From Gemmatimonas phototrophica (GTDB lineage: Bacteria; Gemmatimonadota; Gemmatimonadetes; Gemmatimonadales; Gemmatimonadaceae), in the NCBI RefSeq assembly GCF_000695095.2, contig NZ_CP011454.1:4278001-4342000 (forward strand): a DNA stretch of 64,000 nucleotides. The letters run 5' to 3'. Made by a program: the position numbers and the translations under genes. Below the pieces are notes generated by a model, which had not been told where the DNA came from, ran no database searches, and was given only the letters and a program-made list of their open reading frames with translations. This document shows, one piece after another, positions 17,577 to 40,376 of this stretch (positions are counted from its first letter, which is position 1; each line of letters opens with the position of its first letter).

Positions 17577-17577
17577 G

Positions 17578-19062
17578 CTACTGGCGCCGCCGCGGGTCAA
17601 TGGGAGCGACCTTCTTGAGCGCGTAACCGGTCCATACGAGCACCACACCACAGTCGCCGCCGCTGAAGAACTCGGGGGGCACTTTCATGGGGTTGTCGTA
17701 CACCTCCATGGCCAGCACATCGCCGGGCGTCACGATCTCGTCAAGCGACAGCTCCACGAATCCATCGAGATTGGGATTCCGTGCCGTCGTGGCGGTTATG
17801 CCCCGCGAGATACTGTAGCCGTCGAGGAAGATGCGCGGAAAGCACTCGCGTCCGTTCTGACCGCGCATGATGATGGTGTTGCCGCTGCCCAAGCGGTTGC
17901 CAAGCCTCACGCCAGGGACGTTCCAGAGCGCCGTGGTCAGAGTGGTACTGGTGCGTTCGCGAATGGTGGCGCCGTCCATGATGACGCCCAGCCCCTGTTT
18001 CCACCGGGCTTCGATGCGCTCCACCTGCCACGGCACCACGCGCCCGGCGGTCACCCGTACCGTATCAATCCGTGTACCGCTGGACGCCAGCGCGATGGCG
18101 ACGTTCGCGACCTCTCCCGCCCGCAGCACCACGGGGATGCGCTGCGGCTCGAAGCCTACCGATCGCACTTCGAGGGTCTGTGTGCCGGCCACGGCATCGG
18201 CGACGCGAAATCTCCCGGCACTGTCGCTGCGCGCCGGCGAACCACTCCCCAGCACGCGCGCCACGGCGTTGACCAGCGGTTGACCATTGGGCGTCGTGAC
18301 CACGCCACGCACCGTCCCGGCCCCACGCCGTTCCCGTGTTGGCGCGCCGGTCGCAGTGCGATCCAGGACGAAGTCGGCCACCACGTATTCGGCCGTCGGC
18401 ACCGAGAGTTCAATCACGCCCGTCGTGTCGGCCCCCAGATAAGCCAGCGCGGTGACGATGGAGTTCTGCGGAACATGACAGAGCACGAATTGACCGGTAC
18501 TGTCGGCGCGAGCTTCGCGTACGGCATCCTCGCGACCCATCTTCTTGTTGGCAAACACCCACTCCGGCCAACTGGCCCGCACCATCGCCCCCGCCACCGG
18601 GCGCCGCTGGGTGGCGTCACGCACGTCGCCCGTGACGACCGCCAGACTGTCTTCCGGAGGAACACCGCACAGGCGCCGTGCCAGCGTGGCCGCGCCCGGA
18701 ATGGCGAGCGTAAGCGTGATGGTGCCCGCCTCCACCACCTGCACCTGCGCCAGCGGCGCCTCAATGCGCAGCGCGTCGAGCCGTGGATGCAGAAAGCTGA
18801 CCAACCACGTGCCCGCTGGCAGCACGGGCACACTAAAGCCACCCTGCGAATCCGTTCGCGCGTCGAAACCGTCGGCGGCCTGATTGGAGCGGAAGACTCG
18901 CACCGCCGCATCGGCGAGTGGCGCCCGAGCCACGCTATCAAACACCACCCCGCGCAAACGCGCCGCAGGCTGCGCGTGTACGCGGCCAGCCACGGTCGCC
19001 GCAAGCAGCGCTGCCCCCACGCCGAGCGTCATCTTCCTTCGCGCGACAGACGACTTGATCAT
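17578..19062 (-). CDS. CarboxypepD_reg / TonB-plug-like secreted protein (paralogue B)
   Basis: A 494-residue paralogue of the gene immediately downstream, with the same order: signal peptide ending GRVHAQ, three carboxypeptidase-regulatory-like modules, and a barrel-less plug-like C-terminus (NTIIMRGQNGRECFPRIFLDGY, DVLAMEVYDNPMKVPPEF). It differs from paralogue A in the middle but is nearly identical to it at DNA level over about 240 bp. The ATG at 19062 was chosen; another at 19086 is possible. A third copy is in an integron cassette at 33133-34626. The function is unknown; export and binding at the outer membrane are inferences. Confidence 0.72.
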   Translation of the reverse strand: MIKSSVARRKMTLGVGAALLAATVAGRVHAQPAARLRGVVFDSVARAPLADAAVRVFRSNQAADGFDARTDSQGGFSVPVLPAGTWLVSFLHPRLDALRIEAPLAQVQVVEAGTITLTLAIPGAATLARRLCGVPPEDSLAVVTGDVRDATQRRPVAGAMVRASWPEWVFANKKMGREDAVREARADSTGQFVLCHVPQNSIVTALAYLGADTTGVIELSVPTAEYVVADFVLDRTATGAPTRERRGAGTVRGVVTTPNGQPLVNAVARVLGSGSPARSDSAGRFRVADAVAGTQTLEVRSVGFEPQRIPVVLRAGEVANVAIALASSGTRIDTVRVTAGRVVPWQVERIEARWKQGLGVIMDGATIRERTSTTLTTALWNVPGVRLGNRLGSGNTIIMRGQNGRECFPRIFLDGYSISRGITATTARNPNLDGFVELSLDEIVTPGDVLAMEVYDNPMKVPPEFFSGGDCGVVLVWTGYALKKVAPIDPRRRQ

Positions 19063-19292
19063 TCCCTTTGCGGCGGTGAGGACCATGGGGCCGTAGGCAA
19101 GAGGAGACGGGTACGTTCTAATTTCGCTGTGAGCGTGCCAGTCTGCGAGGGCGCGTCATCTCGGCATGGCATATGGACGCCTGATGCCGAGCGGTGAACG
19201 CCCAATGGCGCCCCGCGCCCTTGTCTGGCTTGCGCTGAGGTGGCGCGTTGCACGACCTTCCCGTTGCAACCCACGAGGAGAGCTCCCAAGCC

Positions 19293-24986: not shown

Positions 24987-27900
24987 ATGTCCCCTCGTAT
25001 TGCTCGCGCCGCTGCCCTCTGGCGCCCTCGTCGCCCTGTCTTGCTCGCCCTGCTGGTCGGTACGCTGGCGGCGTGTGGCGGCGGCGATAGCGGGGAGAGC
25101 ACGGCGCCGATGATGGTGCCCCCGCCGCCCGCAGCGGTGGCCAGTGTCACGATGACACCCGATTCCGCCGACCTCGCGCTCGCCGGCACCCTGCAGCTGT
25201 CGGCGGTCGCGCGCGATGCCCAAGGGGCGACCCTCACAGGCCGATCCGCCACCTGGACGAGCTCGGAGCCGACCATCGCGACCGTCTCCACCGCCGGACT
25301 GGTCACGGCCGTGGCCGCGGGGCGCGTGCAGATCACCGTCAGCGTAGAGGGGCAGACGGCCTCGGCGTTGCTCCGCGTGCGCGGGGTGGCCGATACGCTG
25401 CGCGGTGATGCGGCGGCGGCGGCGGCGGCGGCGATTCCCCTGCGCGTTGCACGGCCACGCGCGGAGGACTATCGCACCGACCACCCGGAGCTGGGCAAGG
25501 TGACCATTTCCATCAATACCGTCATGGTGCTGCTTGAGCCCGCGGCCACGATCGGTCAGCTCAATGCGCTGCTGCGCAATGTGGACGCACAGGTGGTGGG
25601 CGGCGTGCCGGGCGCGGCGCAGGCGGCCGGCGTGCTGGTGCTGCGACTGCCCACCCGTACACACGCCGAGCTGGCGGCGGCAATGACCACGCTGCGGCAG
25701 TCACCTCTGATACGGGCGGTGGTGGAAGATCTGGAACTGGAGGGCGCGGTCGTGAGCGCCGAGAGCAGCGACGCAGAGAGCGCCGCTTGGCGTTGGGGCA
25801 CGGTCGCCACGACGATGGCGGATGGGAACTGGGGGCTTAAAGCCATGCGTGTGCCGCAACTCTGGAACCTCGACGACTTCATCCGTCGCGATGGGGCGAC
25901 CACCGTCACTGCGGTCTTTGATGGCGGATTCCCCGCGCACCCGGATCTGCGCGTCGCGTCGGACATCACCCCCTCGGACGTCGTTACGTCCGAGAAGGGA
26001 CGACGGCATGGCACCCACGTCGCCGGCACTATCGCCGCAACGTACGACAACGGCCTTGGCGTGGACGGCGTGAATCCCTTCGCGCGCCTGGTGGTGAAGG
26101 GCGGCGCGTACGTTTCCACCTTCCTGACCGGATTCGCCGAGTTGCTGATGAGCACGCCGTCAGCTGGACGGCCGCGCGTCGTGAATATAAGTCTGAATTA
26201 CAACTGGGGTGAAAAAGGCGTCAACACCGCGCTGCAGGACTCGGCCCGGACGCGTGCGCAGCGGCAGGGGCTGATGGTCGAAGCCATGATGGCGTCGGTG
26301 CAGCTCACCAGCGGTTCGTTGCCGCTCGTGATCGTCTCAGCGGGTAACGATCGCAACTTTTTTCCGGCACAGGATGCCCGCTTTGCGTCGCCGTTCACCA
26401 ACGCGGCGATCGAGCGCGGCGTGAAGGCAATCGTTGTGGTGGAGGCGCTGCAGCTTACCGAGGGCGGCACGCTCTCGGAGGCCGCATTCTCCAACGACGG
26501 TGGCCATCTCTCCGCGCCCGGCGTGCAGATCATGAGCACACTGCCGGTGGCGGGAGGCGCGCAGCCCTACGGGCGTTTGAGCGGGACCTCCATGGCGACG
26601 CCGCACGTGGCGGGCCTGGTGGGCTATCTGCTCGCGCTGGACCCATCGTTCCCGGCACCCACGATGACGAGCAACCCGATGCTCGACCTGCTGCGCGCCA
26701 CCGCGCGACCGGTAGCTGGAGCATCGCCGGGCGTCGATGCCTTCGCCGCCGCGATCGAGATGGATCGGGTGCGCGGGAACGATCGCGTGCTGCGCGCGCT
26801 CGTTGATGTGGACGATGGCACGATCGATGGCAACATGCGCGTAGATCTGCGCACCATGCAGCCGGTGCTCGGTGATGCGGCCGGCGCGCGCGACGGTCGC
26901 ATCGACATGCGGGATTTCCGCCGCTGGCGCGACCATCAGTTGCAGGCGGAAGGCAACGACGATGCGGTGCTCGATGGTTCGTCGAATCATCCCAAGAGGG
27001 ATCTCAATGTCGACGGCCGGCCGAACAGGACGGAGAACGTGTTTCCGCGCACCGACTTCAATGGCGACGGCCGGCTGGCGTTCCTTGACGAGTCTCCGAT
27101 GACGGGCATCTTCGGCGGCGCGCGGCGCACCGACCTGCAGGTGCTGCAGCGACTCTTCGACGACCCCGACTACTCGAGGACGATCTGCCGAAACTGGTCG
27201 ACTCGGGCGACCTGCTCTTCGATCCCGTGGCCTGCCTGGCGGTGCCCGGGACCGCCAACGTGCGCGCCACACTGCGTCGTGAGGAAGAGGAGACGGCCTT
27301 TCGCGTCTTCGACCTCACGCTGGCCTCACCGCGCAAGATGGTGACCGCGGCGGCCGATGGTACGGACTACCGCGCGCGACTCTCGGCCCGCGATGCGCGC
27401 GGTGAAGAGCTGGCGTACTTCGAACGCAAATTGCGGATTGGCCTCGGAGAAGACGTGCTCATCGAAGGCGAATGCTTTCGGCTGGATGTGGACGTGATCT
27501 TCCCCGCCCAGGTCACCGCCGGCGCAACACAGCCGCTCAACATCAAGGTGACGCGTTTTCGGCCTCGCCTCGAAACGCGCAACGTGGTGTCGAACGCCGA
27601 CGTGACGATCACCGTCGTCGGTGGCGACGCGGCAAGCGGGTTCGGCACCACCAACGCCGCCGGCGAGTTCACCACCACGATTCGGCCGGCCGTCGGCCCG
27701 CCGAGCATCACCGTGATCATCGAGGTGGAGACAGAAAACGGCAGCACATCGGTGCGCGTGACGCGCCCGATCACGAGCGCGACGCCGCGCGTGCTCACCA
27801 CGTCGCTGCCGTCCGCCACGATTGGCACGTTCTACGACGTGGCGTTGGCTTCGACGGGCGTGACCGGCCCCCCCACGTGGACGGTGGTCACGGGCTCACT

Positions 27901-28432
27901 CCCCGCCGGCATCACCCTCAATGCCTCCACCGGGCGACTCAGCGGGACGCCGACCACCGCCAGCACGAGCCGCTTCAGCGTCCGCGTTGCCGGCACCACG
28001 GCCAGTGATCCGCAGGAGCTGGAGCTGGTGGTGCAACTGGGCCAGGGCGTGCGCACGTACCAGGGCTCGACACTCACCACCCGCAGCAATAGCACGACGG
28101 TGAATCGCACCTGTTCACTGCGAACGCTCCGCGCCCTGTTCCGCGGCACGAGCTTCGACGTGAGTGTCGTGGCGCCCGGGGGCACCTCGGCCGAATGCTC
28201 CCTGACGACGGTGCAGGAAGGCAGCTTCATCCCGATCTCCCCGTCCGGCGCCTTCGACCATACCACCAGAGGACCGGGGACCAGTACCGGGCGCCTGCAG
28301 CGCTGGGTCGGCACCATTACGGCGGGGGGACTCACCCTGCGCTACGAGCAGGGCCTGGCCATCCCGGGTACGCTCACCATCGATCCGGCACAGATCATCT
28401 TCCGGATCGACTTCTCAGGTTCGCCAATGTGA
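24987..28432 (+). pseudogene. Subtilase (S8) lipoprotein with Ig-like domains, split by a frameshift
   Basis: One gene in two frames, 24987-27344 and continuing to 28432. The first part has a lipobox (LAACGGG), a Big_2 Ig-like domain (about 45-135), an inhibitor-like I9 region and a subtilase domain with Asp in TAVFDGGF (about 311), His in RRHGTHVAG (about 341) and Ser in LSGTSMATPHVAG (about 533). Coding sense changes frame near 27175-27183: the correct continuation EDDLPKLVDSGDLLFDP is in the +2 frame, as if one base were missing. The rest encodes two beta-sandwich domains, one He_PIG-like (GSLPAGITLNASTGRLSGTPT). The protease domain lies upstream of the break and could still be made. It could also be a sequencing error. 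Confidence 0.75.
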
Positions 28433-28512: not shown

Positions 28513-30567
28513 TCAAATGCAGCCTAAGATGGCGCAGATGCCATCCTCGATGGCCCCATAAATGTCCTGGAGAACCGCCTGCACCTCACCGACGGCCCAG
28601 CCGGCACCCTTGAGCGCCGCGGCTACGGCGGCCTGCCCGATCGAGTAGACGGTCTTGAGCGCGCCGGCCACCTCAGCGATGGTATAGCCGGCACCCTTCA
28701 GCACCGTGGCCGCCGCGTCAGCACCGAGCCCGTAGACGTCCTGCAGCACACCGGCTACCTCGTTGATCGCGAAGCCCGCCAGCTTGAGTGCCGCGATGAC
28801 CGCGGTCTGCCCGATCGAGTAGACGGTCCTCAGCGCGCCAGCCACCTCCGCAGCGGCGTAGCCGGCCCCTTTGAGCACCACGGCGGCCGCGTCGGCGCCG
28901 AGTCCGTAGACGGTCCGCAGCGCACCGGCGACCTCGCTGACGACGAAGCCCGCGCCCTTCAGCACCGTGGCAGCCGCGTCGGCGCCAAGCCCGTACACGG
29001 TCTGCAGCGCACCGGCGACCTCGTTGACGACGAAGCCCGCGCCCTTAAGCACCGTGGCCGCCGCGTCGGCGCCGAGCCCGTAGACGGACTGCAGTGCACC
29101 GGCGATCTCGTTGACGACGAAGCCCGCGCCCTTGAGCACCACGGCCGCCGCGTCGGCGCCGAGCCCGTAGACGGTCTGCAGCACACCGGCCACCTCGTTG
29201 ACGAGGAAGCCCGCGCCCCTGAGTGCCGCGATGACCGCGGTCTGCCCGATCGAGTAGACGGTCCGCAGCGCGCCGGCCACTTCCGCCGCGGCATAACCGG
29301 CCCCCCTGAGCACCGTGGCGGCCGCGGTGGCGCCGAGCCCATAGACCGTCTGCATTACGCCGGCCACTTCGTTCACGAGGTAGCCCGCGCCCTTGAGCAC
29401 CGTGGCCGCCGCTCCTGCGGTCAGATTGTAGACCGTCCGGAGCGCGTCCGTCACTTCACCGATGGCATAACCGGCCCCCTTGAGCACCGCGGCGGCCGCG
29501 TCGGCGCCGAGCCCGTACACGGTCTGCAGCGCGCCCGCCACTTCTCCGGCGACGTAGCCGGCCCCCTTGAGTGCCGCGACGACCGCGGTCTGCCCGATCG
29601 AGTAGACGGTCTGCAGCGCGCCGGCCACCTCCGCAGCGGCGTAGCCGGCCCCCTTGAGCACCGTGGCCGCCGCGTCGGCACCGAGCCCGTAGACGGTGTG
29701 CAGCGCGCTGGTCACCTCGCCGACTGCGTAGCCGGCCCCCTTGAGCGCCGTGGCGCCCGCGTCGGCCGCCAGCCCGTAGGCATCACGCAGTGCGGTACCG
29801 GCCTGCACCACCGGCACACCGAGCGTGTTGAACACGGTCATCGCCTGCACGTCCGACGCGCGCAGGGCGCTCAGACGCAGCGCAGTAGCAACCTGGGTAG
29901 GAGTGAACGGCGCGAGGTCAGAGAACAGGCGCGTCGCCACCATCTGCGCGTTCAGCCCGAACTCGCGCGCCAGCACGTCGGCGATCTGCGTGGCCGTGAA
30001 CCCACGGGCGCGCAGCGCGCGCACGCGGATGGCCGCGTTGTTGCTCACCCAGAATTTGAGCGGAATCGAGCCACTGCCGACCACGTAGGGCATCGACCCG
30101 ATCTCGAGCCCGGAGACCTCCACCGACAGGCGTGTCGTTGCCCCGACCTGCTGGGCCAACGGCTGCCAGACCGCGAGGTACTCGGCGGTGCGCTGATCGA
30201 GGCGCAGGCGCGTGTTGGTCGGGCTCGCGGCGGTGAAGCTGGCGAGCACCGAGCCGCAGCCGCCACCCGTTGCCGGGGTGCACACTTTCACGGTGAGCTG
30301 GGCGAGGAGCGATACGTCCACCGACATGGGGCGCCGGGGGGGCGTGATGACGGGCGCCGAGAAGGTCAGTGCCCCGGTGAGCACGCTCGCGTCGAACGGC
30401 AGCGAGAAGAGCGAGGGTGTTGCGGGGCCCGCGACGACGTCCGCTGACGGGCGCTCGGCAGGCGGCGCGAGGCGCAGCTCGGTAGGCGCGACGGGATTGT
30501 CACCGCAGGCGGCGGCGAGCAGGAGCGAACCGGCGGCCAGGAGGCGGACCAGTGATCGACGTGGCAT
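28513..30567 (-). CDS. Lipoprotein with fourteen 29-residue helical repeats
   Basis: A 684-residue exported lipoprotein (lipobox LLAAACGDN, Cys about 21). Residues 25-170 are beta-rich. About 175-255 is helical. From about 256 to 661 there are 14 tandem units of exactly 29 residues with the pattern VAGALxTVYGLGADAAAxVLKGAGY/F-xxxE, then a partial fifteenth ending in a CAILGC cysteine pair. Most units carry YGLGADAAA; four carry YSIGQTAV instead. Each unit probably forms a helix-turn-helix, giving a solenoid. Function is unknown. The longest run of near-identical units is the middle (29000-29240). Possible roles are adhesion or scaffold. Confidence 0.8.
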   Translation of the reverse strand: MPRRSLVRLLAAGSLLLAAACGDNPVAPTELRLAPPAERPSADVVAGPATPSLFSLPFDASVLTGALTFSAPVITPPRRPMSVDVSLLAQLTVKVCTPATGGGCGSVLASFTAASPTNTRLRLDQRTAEYLAVWQPLAQQVGATTRLSVEVSGLEIGSMPYVVGSGSIPLKFWVSNNAAIRVRALRARGFTATQIADVLAREFGLNAQMVATRLFSDLAPFTPTQVATALRLSALRASDVQAMTVFNTLGVPVVQAGTALRDAYGLAADAGATALKGAGYAVGEVTSALHTVYGLGADAAATVLKGAGYAAAEVAGALQTVYSIGQTAVVAALKGAGYVAGEVAGALQTVYGLGADAAAAVLKGAGYAIGEVTDALRTVYNLTAGAAATVLKGAGYLVNEVAGVMQTVYGLGATAAATVLRGAGYAAAEVAGALRTVYSIGQTAVIAALRGAGFLVNEVAGVLQTVYGLGADAAAVVLKGAGFVVNEIAGALQSVYGLGADAAATVLKGAGFVVNEVAGALQTVYGLGADAAATVLKGAGFVVSEVAGALRTVYGLGADAAAVVLKGAGYAAAEVAGALRTVYSIGQTAVIAALKLAGFAINEVAGVLQDVYGLGADAAATVLKGAGYTIAEVAGALKTVYSIGQAAVAAALKGAGWAVGEVQAVLQDIYGAIEDGICAILGCI
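28516..29802 (-). repeat. 87-bp tandem coding repeats
   Basis: Fourteen in-frame 87-bp units plus a partial fifteenth encode the 29-residue helical repeats of the overlying lipoprotein. Neighbouring units in the middle differ at only a few bases, which suggests recent expansion. Length is always a multiple of three, so copy-number change keeps the reading frame. Confidence 0.85.
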
Positions 30568-30739
30568 TGGAAGGATCCGGAGTGGGATGTGGGGTACGCG
30601 AACGAGGGCGAGGGTGAGTGGCAGACCCGCCGACGCTCAGGTGATCGGAAAACAGAGACGGAAGCCGACAGCCACCGGCTGCCGCCGCACAGGCCGATAG
30701 ATTCCACTAGCCCTTTCCGAGCCCCCTCATCTTCGCACC

Positions 30740-31168
30740 ATGGACCGACGCGCCCTCAAGGACGAAGTGTTCCTCCGCATGGCGACCGAGCTCAGCCGGC
30801 TTGGCACCTGCTGCCGCCTCAAGGTGGGGGCAGTGCTCCTCCGTCCCGACGGGGGGATCGGTGCCGCGGGCTTCAACGGCGCCCTCCCGGGGATGCCGCA
30901 CTGCACGCCGGAAAGCTGCCGCCCCGGTCAGCGGTGTCTGCACACGAGTCACGCCGAAGAGAATGCGCTGGGGTTCTGCGACGGCCAGGTGACGGTGGCG
31001 TACGTGACGCATGAGCCCTGTCTTGCCTGCACCCGCTCGCTCATCCGCCGCGGGGTGCGACGCGTCGTGTTCGCGAATCCCTACCAGAGCATCGCGCCGC
31101 AGGAGGCCGAGGAGCGCGCGTCGATTCTTGCGCACTTCGGGGTGAGCTGGGAGCAGCGAACGCTCTGA
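30740..31168 (+). CDS. dCMP deaminase family protein
   Basis: A 142-residue zinc deaminase of the deoxycytidylate deaminase type. The zinc and catalytic motif HAEEN (about residues 74-78) and the second zinc motif PCLAC (about 94-98) are intact, with ComEB-like GTCCRLKVGAVLL near the N-terminus. It would convert dCMP to dUMP for dTTP synthesis. It lies just outside the far end of the cassette array and points toward it. It is not flanked by an attC on both sides and is treated as chromosomal. Confidence 0.88.
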   Translation: MDRRALKDEVFLRMATELSRLGTCCRLKVGAVLLRPDGGIGAAGFNGALPGMPHCTPESCRPGQRCLHTSHAEENALGFCDGQVTVAYVTHEPCLACTRSLIRRGVRRVVFANPYQSIAPQEAEERASILAHFGVSWEQRTL

Positions 31169-31284
31169 TCGTCATGCGGTTGGTTGCCGCCAGGACGGCT
31201 CATCGCACGCGGAGGAGAAACCACGGCCTTCGAAATCACCACAGGGCTTCCGATATGGAGCTATCCATTGGGGGGCATATGGCG

Positions 31285-31378
31285 CTGCGTGCGGAAGGCG
31301 TTCTGTCCATCACCAATTCCTTCCGTACTGCTGCGATCCGCTTCTCGCTGCAATGACCCTTCAACGTCTCGTTGCAGT
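31285..31378 (-). other. Possible degenerate attC (attC6)
   Basis: Read on the minus strand, this stretch has AACGAGACGTT near its start and CAGAACGC near its end. These match the outer arms of attC1 (AACGAAACGTT and CAGAACGC). The 7-base core boxes are not conserved. The 50 bases between it and attC5 hold no gene, so it may be a decayed end of the array. Confidence 0.3.
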
Positions 31379-31429
31379 GGACTGCGGTGCGTGAGCATTC
31401 AGCACGCCTCGACAGTCTTGTCGGAGGAG

Positions 31430-31569
31430 GCCTCACGTGTGCTTCTGCTGTGAACGCTCCAAGCAAGAAGCAGTTGGGGGGCGGCCGCTAGGCCGTCCCA
31501 CGCTCCATTGTGCGGCCGCCCCATAGCCGCTACCGCACCTGCGCTCGTCGGCAGCAAGCATCGTTATGC
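31430..31569 (-). other. attC recombination site (attC5)
   Basis: A 140-bp imperfect inverted repeat. On the minus strand it begins GCATAAC and ends GTGAGGC, close to the RYYYAAC and GTTRRRY consensus boxes. Inside are the arm sequences shared with the other sites (CGGCAGCAA on the plus strand near 31550, TTCTGCTG near 31443) and a GC-rich inner hairpin, GGGGCGGCCGC against GCGGCCGCCCC. The stop codon of the cassette gene lies in its first core box, as is common for cassettes. Confidence 0.7.
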
Positions 31570-31815
31570 TGCGGCGTCGCGACGCGCGATCTCGGCCTGC
31601 ACAGCGCGCGGCGCCGTCGATGTCGCGGCGATGGCGGCGATGCCCATTGCCATCGTGCTGATGAAGACCGGCGTGTTCGTCCGCCAGTAGCCGAGGACAA
31701 TCCACGCGAGGACGATGGCGGCAATGATGCCAGCGACAGTGCGCTGGATCGCCTGCGTGGACTTGAGCTTCGCGCGTAGCGCGTGGGTGGATAGCGAGGT
31801 CAGATCGTTGGCCAC
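31564..31815 (-). CDS. Cassette gene: small two-helix membrane protein
   Basis: An 83-residue protein. A soluble helix (about 1-24) is followed by membrane segments at about 25-43 (VAGIIAAIVLAWIVLGYW) and 48-65 and a charged tail (VQAEIARRD). The GTG at 31815 has a GGAG ribosome site seven bases upstream; the longer open frame to 32154 runs across another decayed gene. The stop codon is inside the first core box of attC5. The layout resembles the small membrane proteins often carried by chromosomal integron cassettes. No function is known. Confidence 0.6.
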   Translation of the reverse strand: MANDLTSLSTHALRAKLKSTQAIQRTVAGIIAAIVLAWIVLGYWRTNTPVFISTMAMGIAAIAATSTAPRAVQAEIARRDAAA

Positions 31816-31861
31816 GGGGCTGCTCCAGTTGGACGGGGTGTACGGAGAACAGAACCCGCCG

Positions 31862-32165
31862 TCACGGCGAGCGCAACCACCGGTGACGCCCTCGGGAGGC
31901 CAGCGCGCCGAGCCACGTGGCAAGGACGAACGTGACGAAGGCAACGAGTGCCCCAACGACAACGGCGAGGGGCCCACTGAAGGGAGAATCTTGCAGGCGG
32001 CCCGCTCTGTGCGGCGGCAAGTCCGATGGCAAAGTAGTCGGCGAGCGAGATTGCCGAGAGCAATCAGAACTCGAAGCCGAGGCTCCGGGCGGCGGCGGCC
32101 CCACCCGTTGAGATGAGGAGCACCGCCGTGAGCCCCCAGGAGAGAATGCGACACTCAGGGGTCAT
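31862..32165 (-). pseudogene. Decayed small membrane protein gene in cassette 5
   Basis: Three membrane segments can be followed through two frames. An ATG at 32165 opens a signal-like helix (LSWGLTAVLLISTGG), broken by an in-frame TGA at 32064-32066. The same frame then reads LLSAISLADYFAIGLAAAQ. A further frame change leads to GPLAVVVGALVAFVTFVLAT, ending at 31862. Together they suggest an ancestral protein of about 100 residues with one stop and one frameshift. It shares a cassette with the gene just downstream. Alternatively, the pieces could be chance open frames. Confidence 0.4.
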
Positions 32166-32201
32166 GCAATCCTGCTCCTCGCGACGAGTGAGTCTGCGTC
32201 A

Positions 32202-32325
32202 GCACAACGCCTTACGTTCTGCTGCAGCGCATCAAGCAGAATGCGGTCGGACGGGCGACGTGCGCCAGCACGGCGCCGGCCAGCCGCGCTCCGCAGTGCG
32301 CTACAACAGCAATGCAACGTGAGGC
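32202..32325 (-). other. attC recombination site (attC4)
   Basis: A 124-bp site. On the minus strand it begins GCCTCAC and ends GTTGTGC. Its plus-strand left half (TTCTGCTGCAGCGCATCAA and what follows) is almost identical to attC1 for about 60 bp. The right half has diverged. It lies between cassette genes at 31564-32165 and 32356-32784. Confidence 0.65.
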
Positions 32326-32355
32326 GACGACCGGTCGCGACGCGTAGCTGGCATG

Positions 32356-32784
32356 CTAGCACGCCGCATCGTCATACACGAGCACCCGTTTGGAATCGAA
32401 GTACCATCTACGATTTCTGAGACTGAACTGGTACTCTTGATCCTCGGCCCACGCACAAATCGGCGGGTCTGGAGGGTCTAGTTTGCCCCACCGAAGCACA
32501 CGAACTACTGCCTTTCCTTGGGCGCGGCTGATGCCCGTAACACGAACCCCTGCTGAAGCACGGGAAGTCGCTGAGTCGGCAGGTGGGCTAAGCAATGCTA
32601 TGGCAACTGCCGAGTCACGAGCTGGCACATTTGCGACAACCTGAATCGCGTCGGCGAGGGCTCGGCGAAATTCTCGGTCGGCAATTGGTGTGGCAGAGGA
32701 GTAACACCCCAACAACAAAGACGTGAGCGCGAACATCCATGTACGCCGTAGCGTCCCATCGATCGAGTGCGAGTTGAATGTCAT
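32356..32784 (-). CDS. Cassette gene: small lipoprotein of unknown function
   Basis: A 142-residue exported lipoprotein. The signal sequence ends in LTSLLLGCYSS, giving a lipidated Cys near residue 27. The mature part has a helical stretch (EFRRALADAIQVVANVP), then beta strands (GVRVTGISRAQGKAVVRVLRW) and aromatic, tryptophan-rich C-terminal strands. No family was recognised. The ATG at 32784 has GGTGAC just upstream and lies about 37 bases inside the cassette boundary set by attC3; a start at 32736 is possible. Same direction as the integrase. Confidence 0.6.
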   Translation of the reverse strand: MTFNSHSIDGTLRRTWMFALTSLLLGCYSSATPIADREFRRALADAIQVVANVPARDSAVAIALLSPPADSATSRASAGVRVTGISRAQGKAVVRVLRWGKLDPPDPPICAWAEDQEYQFSLRNRRWYFDSKRVLVYDDAAC

Positions 32785-32820
32785 GTCACCATTTGGCTTC
32801 GCCCGAAGGTGGGTGCGATT

Positions 32821-32911
32821 GCCTAACGCCCGGTTCTGCAGCGGGCGCCGAGATCAAATGCGCGCGCAGCGCGCTTCAGAAAGCGCCCGAGTTCAGCACG
32901 CGTCGTGAGGC
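32821..32911 (-). other. attC recombination site (attC3)
   Basis: The shortest site, 91 bp. On the minus strand it begins GCCTCAC and ends with a perfect GTTAGGC core (plus-strand GCCTAAC at 32821). Arms GCGGGCGC and GCGCCCG pair. TTCTGCAGC on the plus strand matches the arm of the other sites. It separates the 2.3-kb cassette 3 from the lipoprotein cassette. Confidence 0.75.
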
Positions 32912-33132
32912 TCGCGCCACGCGAACGGTTGCCGCCGTTTCGGTAGGTGCCGTGTACGCGACATACCTGAATTAAAGGTCGTATCTCGTCAATGATGCGC
33001 GCGCCGCGTGGGGAGCCCGTGACCTGCAGTGTGGCACCAACGATGGCAACTGCTGTCAGGGCTTCATGAAGGGTGAACGAACTGAAGACAAAGAGAAGGA
33101 CGAGACGCGTGTCGAACACCACGGCGACCACA
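32912..33132 (-). other. Cassette 3 tail with a possible small ORF
   Basis: Between the cassette 3 gene and attC3 an open minus-strand frame continues to 32823, stopping on the TAG inside the attC3 core. Its middle is hydrophobic (VLLFVFSSFTLHEALTAVAIVGATLQV), as in the last helices of EamA-type transporters, but no good start or full domain is visible. It may be a remnant of an older cassette gene. Confidence 0.25.
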
Positions 33133-34626
33133 CTACCAGCGCGACCAGAGCAGGAGTGTGCCGCACGGCGAGATCCCAAAACTGAACTGTGCCGGTAAAG
33201 TCGCGGGCGTATAGTACTCGGCGGCGGCAATCAGTGAGGGGTCGATGGAGTCCAAATCCAGCGGTCCCGCGTCGGGCATCCCGTCGAAGATCACGCGTAT
33301 CGGGCACTGCCGCTGAGAAACGCTGATGCTGCCACGACTCGAGACCAGCGTCCGACGGCCGGTGCCGGCGGTGCGCATCCCGGGGATTCGACTGGTGAGG
33401 AAATTCAGCATGCTTCCACCTTCGGCCCTTGCAAAGTCTTCCGGGGCCAAGAACCTGCCGAATCCCATCTTCCGCCTCTCGTCGAAGTCCGCGAGGTTGC
33501 GCCCGAGCATCGTGCGCACCATCGCGTTCGCACGCACCCGCACCGTATCCATGACCTGCGCGCGCACCAGCGCCACCACCTGCGCCACGGTGTCGCCGGG
33601 CACGAGGTCGACCGGCTGCTGCCGCGGCGCGTACCCGAGCGCCTGCACGGCGAGCGTCCACGTGCCGGTGGGTGTGGCCGCGAGCAGGAAGCGCCCCGCA
33701 CTGTCGGTGCGTGTCTCGAGCCCGGTCGCACTCAACCCGACGATGGCGTTGGCGAGCGGACGTCCGTCGACGGTCTGCACGGTGCCGCGCACCCCACCCG
33801 CGCCACGCAGCACGATGTCCACCAGGCCGCTGTCTTCCGGAGGCTGCGGGCCACTCGGCGTTGTCACCACCGTGTCCGCACGCCCCAGCACCAGGTCGCG
33901 CGGCACAATGCCGGTGGCCGACGACGTGAACGTGACGACGCCGCTCGCCCCTTCGGCGCTTACCGCGCGCAGCCGTACGGTGGTCTCGGTGGGCACGCCG
34001 CACAACACGTAGCGGCCGTTGTCGCCCACCGGCACGTCGGTGGTCACGATGGTACGTTCAATGCGCCCCGTCTCGACCCGCAGGTCCGGCCACTGCGCCG
34101 TCACCTGCCCGGCGCTGAGCGGCAGGGCGCTGCCCGTCGCTGCTGCGCGCGGCAACGCGCTTGTCCGCACGGCCTGCCGCACGGTGCCGAACAGATAGCC
34201 GGTGCCCGGGGTGGCCGCGCTCCCGCACACGCGCGCCACAAGTGTGCCGACCGACGGCATCGCCGCGCGCACGGTCACGCCCCTCCCGGCGCGCACGGTG
34301 AACGGCACCGCGACGCTGCCCACACCGAGCGTATCGAGGCGTGCGTGGCGTGCCGTGAGCACCCACGGCCCGGCCGGCAGGCTGTCCACCCGTGCGCGTC
34401 CGCGCGCATCGAGGGTAGCGTCGTGCACGCGCGTCGTATCGAACACCGACACGAGGCGCACGCTCGCACCCGCGAGCGGCAGGCGTGTGATGCCATCTAC
34501 GCCCGTGATGTCCACGCGCCCGGGACGCCCCGGTGACGCGGACGCTTGCGCGTGCGCACGCGCGGCGCCGAGCATGCTCACGCACGTGACCATGGCGGCG
34601 ACGAGGAACGTCGTATGATGCGTCAT
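33133..34626 (-). CDS. Cassette gene: CarboxypepD_reg / plug-like protein (paralogue C)
   Basis: A 497-residue exported protein with the same plan as the tandem pair at 16080-19062. The signal peptide (TTFLVAAMVTCVSMLGAARAHAQ) is followed by carboxypeptidase-regulatory-like modules (VDITGVDGITRLPLAGASV, VRGTVQTVDGRPLANAIVGL) and a short plug-like end (RTAGTGRRTLVSSRGSI, IRVIFDGMPDAG). The C-terminus is shorter than in the paralogues and lacks the CIPPIYLDG-type insert cysteine. The start at 34626 precedes the signal peptide. It lies between attC2 and attC3 in the integron and reads the same way as intI. It is unusually long for a cassette gene. Confidence 0.7.
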   Translation of the reverse strand: MTHHTTFLVAAMVTCVSMLGAARAHAQASASPGRPGRVDITGVDGITRLPLAGASVRLVSVFDTTRVHDATLDARGRARVDSLPAGPWVLTARHARLDTLGVGSVAVPFTVRAGRGVTVRAAMPSVGTLVARVCGSAATPGTGYLFGTVRQAVRTSALPRAAATGSALPLSAGQVTAQWPDLRVETGRIERTIVTTDVPVGDNGRYVLCGVPTETTVRLRAVSAEGASGVVTFTSSATGIVPRDLVLGRADTVVTTPSGPQPPEDSGLVDIVLRGAGGVRGTVQTVDGRPLANAIVGLSATGLETRTDSAGRFLLAATPTGTWTLAVQALGYAPRQQPVDLVPGDTVAQVVALVRAQVMDTVRVRANAMVRTMLGRNLADFDERRKMGFGRFLAPEDFARAEGGSMLNFLTSRIPGMRTAGTGRRTLVSSRGSISVSQRQCPIRVIFDGMPDAGPLDLDSIDPSLIAAAEYYTPATLPAQFSFGISPCGTLLLWSRW

Positions 34627-35153
34627 CACTTGCGATTCTCCATTTATACCGATGCGTTCGAGCCACTTGCGACCTGTCCAGAACACGAGCGCCCCGCATT
34701 CCGAGGTGACGCGCTGGAACCGCAGCGGCACCACGGTCTTGCATTGTCGTTCTCCGCGCCGAGCACGTCGTCGAGATCGCCCTCAGGAGAGGAATTTCAA
34801 ACGGGCTGCGTCGCTTTCCTTTGGAGCATACGGCGCGATCACCGGCCTCGCCAGCGCCTCGTGCCGGGCGGCGGCCTGTCATCGATCGCGCGCTGACAAC
34901 CTTCGCGGCGCGGGCGCGTCGGTCGCGGTGGGTGGCCAAACCCATCGGAGGCGCCGGTGGAACGGCCGCCCACGCCAAAGGTCTCCTCGTGGTGGCGGGG
35001 TGTCGGGGCCGTCCTCAGGTAACTGGCGCAGCGCCGTCGGACGGGCGTGGGGCGCGCGCTGCGCCGCATGCCACTCCGATTGCGCGGCCTGCGCCCGAAA
35101 AAGATTGGATCAATGGCAGAACCAATCGCATCCGCCCATCGCTTTGTGAGTTG
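34627..35153. other. Leader part of cassette 3, nothing recognised
   Basis: About 530 bp between attC2 and the start of paralogue C. Several open frames cross it, but their translations are arginine-rich and without domain character. No attC arm motif (TTCTGCTG or CGGCAGCAA) was found here, so a hidden site between two fused cassettes could not be shown. Confidence 0.35.
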
Positions 35154-35289
35154 GCATAACGTTTGCTTCTGCTGTGGACGCTCATATAAAAAGGGTTTGG
35201 CGGGGCCTCCGCAACCAAGCCCAGGTCATCACGGAGGCCCCGCCAAACCCATCCTTACCCGCGGCCATCGGCAGCAAGCGTCGTTAGCC
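35154..35289 (-). other. attC recombination site (attC2)
   Basis: A 136-bp site. On the minus strand it begins GGCTAAC and ends GTTATGC. Plus-strand arms are TTCTGCTG near 35167 and CGGCAGCAAG near 35269. The centre is a 19-bp perfect inverted repeat (35193-35211 with 35232-35250) around a 20-base loop, much longer pairing than in the other sites. Its first core is the exact complement of the attC1 end core, so cassette 2 has matched ends. Confidence 0.8.
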
Positions 35290-35434
35290 TGCGGTGCTCC
35301 GGTGTCCGAGGTCGGCGTCCTCTATGAAAAAGAGGGATGAAATGCGCCTGCGTCCTGCGCGTCACGCACGTTCAACTGTGTCAGCTATTCGTACAGCATA
35401 TGCACCGATAACAACGGCCCGACGCGCTAGGGTG

Positions 35435-36472
35435 TCAGCGCGATGCGGGCCGTAGAGTCGAGAGAAACGCGCGCATTAGCCGTTCCGTATCGACCGGCTC
35501 TCTGAGGAACTGGTAGTGGTGCGAAGGAGATGCGACGACCCGCGCCTGTGGCACCTCTCGAGCGAAGCGTTCACGCTCGCGCAGGACCCACGGCCGTAGC
35601 ACCGAGTCGACGACCGCCGTCGTTCGTGCAATCCCCAAGGAGTCGCCCGCGAGGAACGGGAACATCACAGTGATCGGATCCCAATCCGAATAGAGCGCGA
35701 GCGCCGGGGCGCGCACGCCTCGATAGTCAAGGGCTGGTGTGTTTGTGAAGATTGCCTGCGCGACCCGGTTGGGCGTTCGCGGCCCCACGAGCGATCCCGC
35801 GGAGTCGAAGAGAAATGTGGCGATCACCTCGCCAATCGGATACTCGACACCCCGTAGGCGGCGCAGATAGTCCTGCAGTCCCGTCGGGCTGGCCAGCTCT
35901 ACGGCCAAGGGGCTCGGCATGATACTGCCGAGCGCCGAAAAGAGGCGCTCTTCGGCGTTGAAGGCAGCCGAGTGATCCAGCGCTGCGTCGAGATAGATCA
36001 CGCCGGCCGTACGCGTTGGATATGTCGTGGCGAAGCCCGTGATCTCATCACCGCCGAGCGAGTGCCCGGCGAGCACGACGTGATGCAGCCGCAGCGTGTC
36101 GAGGACCGCCCGGAGTTGCTCGACGCGCGCTGCAATCGCGTAGCCCTCTCGCTCCGGTTGGTCAGAGCCGCCGAATCCGACGCGCGAAACGCCGATGACG
36201 CGGTACTGATCGGTGAACCGCGGCGCAAAGCCGTCAAAGACGTGGGCTGAGTTGCCCATCCCCGGATAGAAGACGAGCGTCGGGCCGGAACCGCCCCAGT
36301 CGAGGTACTCGATTCGGACGCCGTCGACCGTCACGGTGCCCACGCGGTGTGGCGACGTATCTGTCGGCCGATGGGGCGCGACGTGTGGCGCCTGGGCTTC
36401 GGCGCTGCCTCCGGGAGCGAGGAGGACGGCGACGACGGCTAGAGTCAGAATGCGCGGGAACGAAACGTACAT
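35435..36472 (-). CDS. Cassette gene: secreted alpha/beta-hydrolase
   Basis: A 345-residue exported hydrolase. A signal peptide (to about residue 26, VLLAPGGSAEA) precedes an alpha/beta-hydrolase fold with GSGPTLVFYPGMGNSAHVF, the nucleophile elbow LAGHSLGGDE (about residue 137) and a catalytic-histidine candidate in SPSHHYQFL near the end. Close in type to epoxide-hydrolase/esterase-like enzymes; the substrate is unknown. The ATG at 36472 begins the signal peptide; the open frame to 36532 is less likely. It sits in cassette 2, between attC1 and attC2. Confidence 0.78.
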   Translation of the reverse strand: MYVSFPRILTLAVVAVLLAPGGSAEAQAPHVAPHRPTDTSPHRVGTVTVDGVRIEYLDWGGSGPTLVFYPGMGNSAHVFDGFAPRFTDQYRVIGVSRVGFGGSDQPEREGYAIAARVEQLRAVLDTLRLHHVVLAGHSLGGDEITGFATTYPTRTAGVIYLDAALDHSAAFNAEERLFSALGSIMPSPLAVELASPTGLQDYLRRLRGVEYPIGEVIATFLFDSAGSLVGPRTPNRVAQAIFTNTPALDYRGVRAPALALYSDWDPITVMFPFLAGDSLGIARTTAVVDSVLRPWVLRERERFAREVPQARVVASPSHHYQFLREPVDTERLMRAFLSTLRPASR

Positions 36473-36563
36473 GTGAAGCCGAAGATGTTGGGAACGGAAG
36501 AAGGGAGGAAGGCGCGGCCAGTGTGTGTGCAAGGCGAGTTCGGCGCAACAATGCGTGTTAGCA

Positions 36564-36688
36564 GGCTAACGCTTTGCGTTCTGCTGCAGCGCATCAAACA
36601 AAATGCGGCCGGACGGACGTCGTGCGCCAGCACGGCGACCGCCTGCCGCATACCGCATCGCGCTGTCGGCAGCAACGTTTCGTTAGAC
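36564..36688 (-). other. attC recombination site (attC1)
   Basis: A 125-bp site with the best outer boxes. On the minus strand it begins GTCTAAC, a perfect RYYYAAC, and ends GTTAGCC. Plus-strand arms GCGTTCTGCTGC and GTCGGCAGCAAC pair to form the usual stem with a bulged base. Its first core is the exact complement of the GTTAGAC at the attI junction, so cassette 1 has matched ends. A small palindrome, GTTAGC-AG-GCTAAC, covers the left edge (36557-36570). Confidence 0.85.
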
Positions 36689-36743
36689 CACGCTGCGCGG
36701 ACGGTGCGGCTTGCGTGTAATAGGCCTGCACTGATTGAAGTAG

Positions 36744-37169
36744 TCACGTGGCCATTGGCCTCCACCGCATTCGCAAGGCGCCAGCGCTGACGGCGACGGC
36801 TACGAGCACCGGGACGAAAGGAAACACCCAGAAAAAGGCGCGATCCGCCAGCGTTGGATGGACCGCACCGAGTACGCTGTAGAGCGGGCCCATCAAGAGC
36901 ACCAGTCCAACGAGGGTTAGCGCGAACGCGAGCGATGAGAAAGCGGCGAGCCCACGCGGCGGCATATGTGCAATGCGGCGCCAAATGACGGGGAGTGCCA
37001 GCAGGTACAGAAGGACTGAAGGGGCTAGCAGCACGAACGCATCGGCCTCGACCGGGTAGCGCTCCCCACCTCCTGGCACTGGCGCGCGTTGACTCCAAAC
37101 GCCGATACCAGTGATGAGTAGCGCAGCAGCAGCGGGAAAGACGAGAAGCGCGAGGAATCGCCTTAACAT
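36744..37169 (-). CDS. Cassette 1 gene: small integral membrane protein
   Basis: A 141-residue protein with four predicted membrane segments: about 5-25, 46-63, 76-96 and 108-130. Loops are short and the C-terminus is basic (LRMRWRPM). No family was recognised. The ATG at 37169 is 26 bases from the attI-cassette junction, so the gene is placed as the first cassette gene and would be read by any promoter inside or upstream of intI/attI. Same direction as the integrase. Confidence 0.6.
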   Translation of the reverse strand: MLRRFLALLVFPAAAALLITGIGVWSQRAPVPGGGERYPVEADAFVLLAPSVLLYLLALPVIWRRIAHMPPRGLAAFSSLAFALTLVGLVLLMGPLYSVLGAVHPTLADRAFFWVFPFVPVLVAVAVSAGALRMRWRPMAT

Positions 37170-37189
37170 TCAAAGACTTTCGTAAAGTG

Positions 37190-37370
37190 GTCTAACGAGT
37201 ATTAGACTGCAGGCGATCACTGCAGCCAGCGCGTTATACAGCGGATTTCTGCAGTCTAATCCACAGCGCTTCGCGTCGATGCCATGGTGGATCTCATTGC
37301 CGCGGCATCGGTTACGCCGCAGAGACGTAATTGGGCACTCCGAATTAGACTGCAGATATTGCAGTCTAAC
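37190..37370 (-). other. attI-like integrase-binding region at the 3' end of intI
   Basis: It starts two bases beyond the integrase stop codon. On the minus strand GTTAGACTGCA (37370-37360) is followed by its inverted copy at 37355-37344. A third copy is at 37260-37249, and a fourth, inverted, at 37212-37201. The end is a perfect core GTTAGAC (37196-37190) at the junction with cassette 1. The final pair, GTCTAAT-ACTC-GTTAGAC, looks like the L and R boxes of an attI simple site. The upstream copies are in the place of accessory DR sites. Confidence 0.7.
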
Positions 37371-37372
37371 AT

Positions 37373-38440
37373 TCAGTTGCGCCGAGGGTTCCGCAAGCGG
37401 GAGGCATCGCTCCCCATAACGGTGCGCGACGGTGGTTCCGGCCGCTCTGTTGGACCGCCGGCGCGTGACCCTGACAGTCCGGGAAGATCCAAGGGACTCT
37501 TCACGCCGAGCCCCCCGCGGTTGAGGACGTGGGTATAGAGCATCGTGGTGGACACGTCCCGATGCCCCAACAGTTCCTGCACCGTGCGGATATCGTAGCC
37601 GGCTTCGAGCAGATGGGTCGCAAAAGAATGCCGGAACGTATGGCACCCGACGCGCTGCGCCGTACCCGTGCGCCGCGCCGCCTCAGCGACCGCCCGTTGC
37701 AACACGGTAGGGTGCACATGGTGCGTGCGCCGCTGCTTGGCCTCGGCATCCCAGTATTCGCGCGATGCGGGGAAGACCCACCACCAGCCAGCATTTCGGA
37801 CAGCGCCCATGGCTTTCGTCCCCGTGGCCAGCGGCAACGCGACATACCCGCCCCCGCGGGCGGCCCGTTGCTGCATGTCCAGCCGAACGGCACCGAGATG
37901 TGCGCGCAGGGGTGCAACGAGGCTGGCCGGCAACATGGTCACCCGATCACGCGCCCCTTTACCCCGTCGCACCCGAATCTCGCCGCGATCAAGATCCACG
38001 TCTTTCACCCGCAACGTGCAGCACTCCATGAGGCGCATCCCCGAGCCGTAGAGCAACGAGGCCATGAGCCACGGAACGCCGTCCATGACCCCGAGCACCG
38101 CGGCCACCGCCGCTCGAGACAACACGTTGGGCAGCACATGAGGCCGTTTGGCGGGGGCGATGCCCGTCACCGTGGGCAACGGCTGCTCCAACACGTCCCG
38201 ATACAGGAACTGGAGCGCCGCCAGCGCCTGGTTCTGTGTTGACACCGCCACCCCTCGCGCGGTAGCCAGATACGACAGAAAATTCCGCACCGCAGATGGC
38301 GGGAGCTCGGCCGGATGCCGACGCCCGTGAAAGTTCACGTACGCGACAATCCACCGCACATACACCTGCACCGTGCGCGGACTGTACCGCCGCACGGCCG
38401 CGCGGTCGCGCACCAACAACAAGAGGCGTGAAGACGTCAT
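37373..38440 (-). CDS. intI: Integron integrase (tyrosine recombinase, IntI type)
   Basis: A 355-residue tyrosine recombinase that joins attI and attC sites. The N-terminal SAM-like DNA-binding domain covers about 1-95. Catalytic residues are visible: Arg in YGSGMRL (about 132), His-x-x-Arg in HTFRHSFATH (about 266-269), His in LGHRD (about 292) and the nucleophile Tyr in LYTHVL (about 301). Residues about 203-245 hold the extra segment found in IntI but not in XerC/D, with WWWVFPA and RRTHHVHPTVLQRAV. Its cassettes lie beyond its 3' end and run the same way, the reverse of most integrons. An in-frame TGA just upstream fixes the start at or after 38440. No strong ribosome site is present. Confidence 0.9.
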   Translation of the reverse strand: MTSSRLLLLVRDRAAVRRYSPRTVQVYVRWIVAYVNFHGRRHPAELPPSAVRNFLSYLATARGVAVSTQNQALAALQFLYRDVLEQPLPTVTGIAPAKRPHVLPNVLSRAAVAAVLGVMDGVPWLMASLLYGSGMRLMECCTLRVKDVDLDRGEIRVRRGKGARDRVTMLPASLVAPLRAHLGAVRLDMQQRAARGGGYVALPLATGTKAMGAVRNAGWWWVFPASREYWDAEAKQRRTHHVHPTVLQRAVAEAARRTGTAQRVGCHTFRHSFATHLLEAGYDIRTVQELLGHRDVSTTMLYTHVLNRGGLGVKSPLDLPGLSGSRAGGPTERPEPPSRTVMGSDASRLRNPRRN

Positions 38441-38505
38441 GCATCACGATGCACACGTCTCCACGCCTCGTTGTCATCATGCCAACGCCCATTGTCTCAC
38501 GACAA
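38440..38505 (-). promoter_or_regulatory. Upstream region of intI with two palindromes
   Basis: TGCATCACGATGCA (38440-38453) is a 6-bp inverted repeat touching the start codon. TTGTCTCACGACAA (38492-38505) is a 5-bp inverted repeat 52 bases upstream. Either could be an operator. Many integrases are controlled by LexA, but neither matches a LexA box known to me, and no promoter hexamers are clear. Confidence 0.35.
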
Positions 38506-38528
38506 CGCACGCTGACCACAAACCACCA

Positions 38529-40376
38529 CTACTTCATGCGGTCCCGACGGACCTGCACGCGCAGCCCCTTGATCTTGGTGTTCTTGAGCGCGGTGATCAC
38601 TTCGTCCGCCATCGCCTCCGGCACATCCACCGTGCTGAAGTTGTCGGCAATCTGAATGGCGCCAATGTGCTCCGAGTCCAAGCCGGCCTCGTTGGCAATG
38701 GCCCCCACCAAGTCGCCCGGACGCATCTTGAGTTTGCGACCGGCGCCAATCCACAACGTGGCCGGCGTCCAGGCGGTCTCGCGGCGCGGCTTCTTGCCCT
38801 TCGCACCGCCAGCCTCGGCACGCGGCGGACGACGATCGCCCCCGCCACGCTCGTCACGCGCAAACCGCTCGCCGCCGCGGCTATCGCCACCACGCGACTC
38901 CCCGCCGCGCGACTCGCCACCACGGCTCTCCCCACGATCAAACCGCTCGCGCGGCTCACGCGGCGTCACCGCCGGAATCTCGTCCTCACCACCGTCACGC
39001 GCCGCGACGAGCTTCACCGCCGCCGCCGCCACGTCCATCACGTCAAACTCATCCGCCAACGCTTCCACCATGCCGCGGAAGCTCTCCAAGCCTCCCTCAA
39101 CAATGGCTTCGCGCAACGTCATCTTCACCAGCTCCTGACGGTGCGCCCGCAGGTCGGCCACGGTGGGCACCTGCGCGATGTCGATCTTCTGGCTGGTCTG
39201 CCGCTCAATGTTGCGCAGCAACCGGTGCTCACGCGGCTCGGCCAACGTAATGGCCACACCCTCGCGACCGGCACGGCCGGTACGGCCAATGCGGTGCACA
39301 TACGTTTCGGCATCCGCGGGCACATCGAAGTTCACCACGTGGCTCACGTGCTTCACATCGAGCCCGCGCGCTGCCACGTCGGTGGCAATGAGCAGATCCA
39401 CCTTCTTGGCGCGGAACTTCTGCATCACGCGGTCACGCTGGTCCTGCGACAGCCCGCCGTGCAACGACTCCGCTCGCAACCCGCGCGCCGAGAGCGTCTC
39501 GGTGAGCTCGTCCACTTCCGTGCGCGTGCGGCAGAAGACAATCGCGCTGGTGGGCTGCTCGATGTCGAGCACCCGCGCCAACGCCGGCATCTTGTGCGCG
39601 CGGCTCACCACGTACGCCACCTGGCGTACCCGGGCCACGGCGCCCTCGGCCAACACTTCCCGCTCCACCGTGACATGCTCGGCGTCGCGCAGATACTTGC
39701 GCGCAATCCCGGCAATACGCGGCGGCAACGTGGCCGAAAACAGACAGGTCTGCTTGCTGGCCGGCGTGGCGTCGAGAATGGCCTCGAGTTCGTCGGCGAA
39801 GCCCATGTCGAGCATTTCGTCGGCTTCGTCGAGCACCACCGCCTGCAACGTGCCCAGCTTGAGCGTGTTGCGCTTGATGTGGTCGAGCGCGCGACCAGGG
39901 GTCGCGATCACGACATCCACACCCCGCTTGAGGGCGCGGATCTGCAGTTCCATGCTCGCGCCGCCGTAAACGGCCAGCGCATGCAAGCCCAGCGGCTTGC
40001 CATAACGGTGCACCGCTTCGGCCACCTGCATGGCCAGTTCGCGGGTGGGGACCAGAATGAGGACCGACGGGGCCCCGTTGGCAGCCTTGTGGCCGGCGCC
40101 AATGCGGGTAAGTAACGGGAGCGCAAAGGCGGCCGTCTTGCCGGTGCCTGTGGCCGCCTGCGCGAGCACATCGCGGCCGACCAGCAGGGGCGGAATTGCT
40201 GCCCGCTGCACGGGCGTAGGTTCTTCGTAGCCAAGCGCCGAAAGCGCCTCGGCAATGCGCGAGTCAACACCCAGTGCGGCGAAGCCATTGTTGCCAGCTT
40301 CTGTACTATCCTGCAAATCGTGCTCGGTGCCCGCGCGGATCAGCGCGGCAGACGAGCGCGCGTCCGTTTTGGTCAT
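38529..40376 (-). CDS. deaD: DEAD-box RNA helicase, DeaD/CsdA type
   Basis: A 615-residue ATP-dependent RNA helicase for ribosome assembly and RNA unwinding in the cold. Motifs in order: Q motif (TPVQRAAIPPLL), Walker A ATGTGKT (about residue 75), TPGRALDH, VLDEADEML (about 181), SATLPP, and helicase C motifs with ATDVAARGLD and HRIGRTGRAG. A low-complexity RGGES repeat linker (about 478-505) precedes a DbpA/CsdA RNA-binding domain (about 540-612). The ATG at 40376 has an AGGAG ribosome site. The gene is divergent from the SET-domain gene. Confidence 0.93.
   Translation of the reverse strand: MTKTDARSSAALIRAGTEHDLQDSTEAGNNGFAALGVDSRIAEALSALGYEEPTPVQRAAIPPLLVGRDVLAQAATGTGKTAAFALPLLTRIGAGHKAANGAPSVLILVPTRELAMQVAEAVHRYGKPLGLHALAVYGGASMELQIRALKRGVDVVIATPGRALDHIKRNTLKLGTLQAVVLDEADEMLDMGFADELEAILDATPASKQTCLFSATLPPRIAGIARKYLRDAEHVTVEREVLAEGAVARVRQVAYVVSRAHKMPALARVLDIEQPTSAIVFCRTRTEVDELTETLSARGLRAESLHGGLSQDQRDRVMQKFRAKKVDLLIATDVAARGLDVKHVSHVVNFDVPADAETYVHRIGRTGRAGREGVAITLAEPREHRLLRNIERQTSQKIDIAQVPTVADLRAHRQELVKMTLREAIVEGGLESFRGMVEALADEFDVMDVAAAAVKLVAARDGGEDEIPAVTPREPRERFDRGESRGGESRGGESRGGDSRGGERFARDERGGGDRRPPRAEAGGAKGKKPRRETAWTPATLWIGAGRKLKMRPGDLVGAIANEAGLDSEHIGAIQIADNFSTVDVPEAMADEVITALKNTKIKGLRVQVRRDRMK

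Follow-up and report, generated by a model that had tools for sequence, protein, structure and literature searches.

A probable mosaic of a chromosomal gene body and a resident-cassette tail in an integron of Gemmatimonas phototrophica

The third cassette of an integron array in Gemmatimonas phototrophica (G000) appears to be a mosaic that arose in two steps, its gene body deriving from a chromosomal gene and its tail and attC from a resident cassette. We give this reading a probability of about 0.8. The cassette lies in a window, i.e. the whole stretch of DNA analysed, of 64,000 nucleotides (4278001-4342000 of a 4.72-Mb genome on a single contig). The parts, the break between them, a relic of a former neighbour gene, and the bordering attC sites can be read directly from the aligned sequences. 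What is new here is that both the parts and the seam are preserved.

The array and its third cassette

The integron integrase gene intI (37373-38440, minus strand; TIGR02249, 379.9 bits, cut-off 265) has the same orientation as the cassettes, which point away from its 3'-end in its own direction. Cassettes of a Treponema integron are described as likewise oriented relative to intI (PMC3607928). A covariance model found five attC sites in the window, all on the minus strand: attC1 at 36564-36688 (109.3 bits), attC2 at 35154-35289 (70.5 bits), attC3 at 32821-32911 (29.6 bits, E 2.7e-4), attC4 at 32202-32325 (63.5 bits), and attC5 at 31430-31569 (48.7 bits). The model was built from 15 sites that included attC1 and attC2 and left out attC3; among these 15, changes on both sides were seen in 14 of the 21 pairs of the consensus structure. 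attC3 alone is a weak match, its homologue in G029 reaching 56.3 bits. In 34 other loci (159,572 bases, including the tandem loci of other genomes) the model found no attC at E<=0.1, and locus L047 gave a single weak match at E 0.17.

Between the end of intI and cassette 1 (37180-37370), TTAGACTGCAG or its complement occurs several times, possibly in the attI region. The integrase gene is intact in the window, and its match in each of G001, G021, G026, and G029 has one in-frame stop. The array is flanked by the gene of a 684-residue protein (28513-30567), which largely consists of repeats of ~30 residues and has weak, unconvincing Pfam matches. Nearby, a subtilase gene (24987-28432) overlaps an ORF in another frame (27227-28432), perhaps owing to a frameshift.

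Cassette 3 extends from the R' end of attC2, which forms its 5'-border, to the end of attC3 (32821-35154, minus strand; 5'-end approximate). Its gene occupies 33133-34626 on the minus strand, with an ATG at 34626, the stop at 33133, and 498 residues; a first-pass annotation had placed the ORF in an integron cassette at this position, and the bounding attC2 and attC3 bear this out. Homology with G006 covers 32821-35161 and then stops, the neighbours being different. The alternative of a regular chromosomal gene that happens to have attC sites on either side was ruled out, since the borders of homology coincide with the attC edges and the neighbours differ. The 5'-border of the G016 cassette coincides with its attC as well, and the stretch common to G018 and G009 ends at the attC of G009. 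Judged by attC sites, borders, and linked intI, the gene is a real integron cassette gene. The 5'-leader of the cassette (34780-35154, minus strand) is akin to sequences in other arrays: for 34781-35160, matches of 69-85% were found in the arrays of G006 (L060, L062), G016 (L075), and G026 (L074), on the strand opposite to those arrays.

The encoded protein consists of an N-terminal hydrophobic stretch, carboxypeptidase-regulatory domains, and a plug-like end. The first-pass annotation had described a signal peptide and the same domain order as in the proteins of a tandem pair at ~16080-19086 (minus strand). The signal peptide is putative, being read by eye from the hydrophobic start. All three proteins contain PF13620 (CarboxypepD_reg) modules, with 75.1 bits in the cassette protein (gathering cut-off 32.3) and 91 and 97 bits in the pair, and the cassette product can be aligned with the pair over most of the length, at about 30-34% identity with the orthologues. 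For Plug (PF07715), the pair scores close to the cut-off of 23.9 bits (22.9 and 24.8), and the cassette protein has no match at E<=0.1; at the same threshold no outer-membrane beta-barrel family was among its Pfam matches.

Fold searches were carried out with a structure model of low confidence (pLDDT 65, pTM 0.39). Carboxypeptidase transthyretin-like domains were matched by residues 277-356 (Z 14.1). The N-terminal extension of SusC (PDB 9hfj) was matched by residues 275-360 (Z 12.7, rmsd 1.9, 80 residues). The searches returned domain folds only, with no functional leads, and barely covered the plug-like end. As in SusC, the domain resembling the N-terminal extension is followed by a plug-like end; in contrast to SusC, there is no barrel, Plug is below detection, and the match concerns one domain of this low-confidence model. 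The product is probably an exported multi-domain protein that resembles the front of SusC (N-terminal extension and plug) without the barrel. Spread on plasmids was considered and rejected, as tblastn of a plasmid collection matched 1 of 72,556 records at 27% identity.

Orthologues are present in at least 9 of 30 genomes of the genus, many of them incomplete; up to 25 candidates were scored per genome, and the figures refer to the matches listed. Identity to the window copy is 88-90% in G006, G016, G018, G009, and G005, and 69-74% in G001, G004, and G026. G029 has a 60% match over the C-terminal half only and a 37% paralogue. Gene and intI share a contig in G006 (~32 kb apart), G018 (~28 kb), G001 (~21 kb), and G004 (~7 kb) and are on different contigs in G016, G009, and G026; G005 yielded just more distant recombinase matches and no recognised integron integrase. 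Clear attC sites on both sides at cassette distance were found for only three of the nine orthologues (G000, G006, G016). The covariance model detected none within 1.3 kb of the G018 copy and none directly after the gene in G001 and G004. The G001 and G004 copies lie in a common 3.6-kb block of about 84% identity (L066 13956-17597 and L068 10434-14120), which also contains a gene encoding a domain of the beta-lactamase family (PF00144) and, on the other strand, a short family member.

The seam and the source of the tail

Two sources meet inside the gene at ~33475-33505, where identity breaks sharply at a conserved coding stretch, FDERRKMGFGRF. Upstream of it, sliding identity, trees, and composition delimit an apparently chromosome-derived gene body (33500-34626, residues 1 to about 376-390). 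Downstream, the last ~107 codons, the 3'-UTR, and attC3 form a segment (32821-33492) in common with a short-form cassette of G029; seam, body, and segment are all read on the minus strand. The short form belongs to the same superfamily and sits between attC sites of its own. Nucleotide identity is 88.4% between window positions 33043-33492 and G029 L072 12867-13324 and 87.6% between 32820-33051 and L072 13410-13642, the match being interrupted by a single gap of ~90 bp. At the protein level, residues 276-392 of the cassette product show 85% identity to G026 against 38% to the short form; for residues 393-498 the values are 33% and 81%, respectively. Accordingly, sliding identity is 87% to G026 and 42% to G029 at 33501-33580 and turns to 31% and 91%, respectively, at 33341-33420. 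Below the seam G026, G001, and G004 lose the match, and above it G029 has no comparable match. The foreign tail is carried by six species (G000, G006, G016, G018, G009, and G005).

Trees of the separate parts are in strong conflict. The six C-ends cluster with the short form of G029 (99/97), nested among the short forms, and the domain preceding the C-end joins G026, G001, and G004 (100/99). Composition also changes, with GC3 dropping from 0.878 to 0.761 at the seam and the CAI being 0.756 in the N part and 0.609 in the C part. For comparison, CAI ranges from 0.443 to 0.612 in the remaining four cassette genes and from 0.599 to 0.820 in 12 chromosomal reference genes of the window. Hence, the comparison of codon use proposed by the first-pass annotation gave a divided answer: the first 77% of the gene is chromosome-like, but the tail is less so.

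The deviating C-ends could in principle result from fast divergence under selection, without any recombination. In agreement with this, dN/dS is higher in the C part (about 0.45-0.73) than in the N part, where it is about 0.39-0.54 when the window copy is compared with the five other chimeras and about 0.26 between G001 and G026. By these values the N part is constrained, with relaxed selection. However, an identity of ~88% to the G029 short form that runs on through the 3'-UTR and attC cannot be produced by convergence, and we regard fast divergence as refuted, with next to no probability left to it. A common tail and attC would also be expected if the G029 short cassette were a truncated derivative of the long one. 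Against this, in its 5' half the short form shares 52-61% identity with its short-form counterparts in G002 and G007 but just 35-41% with the long forms. Since the short forms agree along their length, the G029 copy is not the recombinant and the long cassette is; truncation is therefore highly improbable.

The chromosomal locus and the direction of transfer

Members of the family adjoin the gene of AdoHcyase (ahcY; 88-95% identical) at 11 loci (L047, L090-L094, L096, L097, L099, L100, L025), mostly as a tandem. In G026, a single metagenome-assembled genome, the orthologue of the cassette gene is the second of two tandem genes at ahcY (L073); the first gene is intact, and the two overlap by ATGA. 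No attC was found by the covariance model at E<=1 in 20 kb of this locus. The nearer relatives in the genome of G. phototrophica itself, among the matches listed, are tandem genes beside AdoHcyase at 4558885-4561811, outside the window (39% and 33%).

The family tree comprised 50 full-length rows that passed the cut-offs, taken from model-matching ORFs in the fetched loci, and thus covers part of the family. In the tree of the N part all nine orthologues fall into a single clade (100/100), which is nested among the tandem-locus genes. The first-pass annotation had proposed a tree of the family across Gemmatimonadota; here, the cassette gene nests within the chromosomal family of the host genus, which agrees with its reading in outline. 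The pair at ~16080-19086, named there as the close chromosomal relatives, proved to be a distant branch of paralogues outside the history of the cassette; it sits in the other half of the tree and was ruled out as the source. The wider proposal of an exchange between genome and integron is borne out in outline, DNA having passed between the two. Within the orthologues, G026 is separated from a clade of all eight integron-linked copies (98/92, and 95/93 under a mixture model). A clade of G026, G001, and G004 was not rejected by the AU test (p 0.089), and trees of the short C-end group G026 with G001; hence, support for G026 as the outgroup is only moderate.

Just 5' of the cassette gene, ~132 bp are a relic of the 3'-end of the upstream tandem gene (34649-34779, minus strand). 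Over 132 columns it is 79-84% identical at the nucleotide level to the terminal part of the intact upstream gene in G026 in all five copies queried (G000, G006, G016, G018, G005), and the sixth copy, G009, can be aligned there as well. G001 has just the edges of the relic, with a deletion. The frame is still readable in G016 and damaged in the other copies. A transfer from chromosome to integron is suggested mainly by this relic; the tree with the mixture model concurs, and the AU test does not reject the rival topology.

In the opposite direction, the cassette would have come first, and G026 would have acquired its gene at ahcY through insertion outside the integron or through gene conversion involving a tandem gene already present there. 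Insertion of cassettes outside integrons has been reported for Vibrio and Shewanella (PMC1382264), and the AU test leaves the required clade possible. However, the upstream gene of G026 is intact with its ATGA overlap and the cassettes hold just its end, mostly with a damaged frame. The G026 locus is moreover free of detectable attC within 20 kb, and in other genomes the same locus is a tandem array of the family. We therefore consider this direction rather unlikely.

Divergence of the cassette was also compared with that of the species, with rpoB recovered in 11 of 12 genomes (G009 lacks an rpoB figure). Between species the dS of the cassette is well under that of rpoB, e.g. 0.118 versus 0.406 for G000-G016, and for G000-G026 the values are 0.454 and 0.45. 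This fits a cassette that spread among the six species once they had separated and whose division from G026 is older. The rpoB tree did not resolve the branching of G022, G001, G026, G004, G029, and G021.

A proposed history and known routes of cassette formation

In the first step, the end of one tandem gene of the ahcY locus and the whole next gene would have reached the array or its side. G001 and G004 appear still to represent this state, with the original C-terminal end. In the second step, in an ancestor of the six-species form, the 3'-end of the gene would have been replaced by that of a short-form cassette at a stretch conserved in the superfamily, the short form giving new C-terminal codons, 3'-UTR, and attC. 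The mosaic would then have moved between species as a cassette. The order of these events, the manner of the first step, and homologous recombination at the seam are what we infer from the preserved parts.

De novo formation of cassettes has been called largely unknown (PMC5371416). A model in which group IIC-attC introns bring gene and attC together (Leon and Roy 2009, via PMC7923331) resembles our proposal in that both are of separate origin and become joined by homologous recombination, as the model predicts. Introns of this type, instead of recombination between relatives, may have joined attC to the chromosomal gene. However, the two parts meet within the coding region of related genes, at a family-conserved stretch, and the tail consists of a family member's own codons. 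Rfam also found no RNA families, and thus no intron, in window 30000-40000, although an intron could have been lost. As the origin of the junction this route appears quite improbable; it might still account for the first step.

Fused cassettes, as described in PMC8876359, likewise turn two cassettes into one unit that is mobile via the second attC. There, both coding regions are kept after loss of an attC, whereas here one frame stems from two sources. Vibrio cassettes with chromosomal homologues were described in 2006, and generation versus insertion was left unclear in that account (PMC1382264). They resemble our case in having close non-cassette homologues in the same genus, and the assembly of chromosomal genes into cassettes was proposed. 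Junctions are not part of that description, in contrast to the source of the body, the neighbour relic, and the relative of the attC donor visible here. In open-access full text we recognised no report of a chromosomal gene spliced in frame to the tail and attC of a resident cassette, though one may exist.

Resident cassettes may more generally act as attC donors: a shared coding stretch would recombine, the chromosomal gene would gain tail and attC, and cassettes could be born repeatedly in this way. We put this forward tentatively and hold it to be possible rather than probable. If true, cassettes of superfamilies present both in chromosome and array could generally form in this manner, with neither an intron nor a new attC. 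Preserved in the present case are the likely chromosomal home, a scrap of the gene once next to it, what appears to be an intermediate, and a relative of the attC donor, and cassette 3 may serve to illustrate in detail how such mobile genes could arise. One route thus becomes testable, via a search for genes in which a chromosomal part continues in frame into a cassette tail.

Some way past the gene, G016 and G005 depart from the window in their 3' sequence, as G018 and G009 do separately, which makes later exchange of 3'-ends likely. The G029 array contains another member of the superfamily, full-length and bounded by attC sites (L072 17286-18812), so that the family has entered cassettes more than once.
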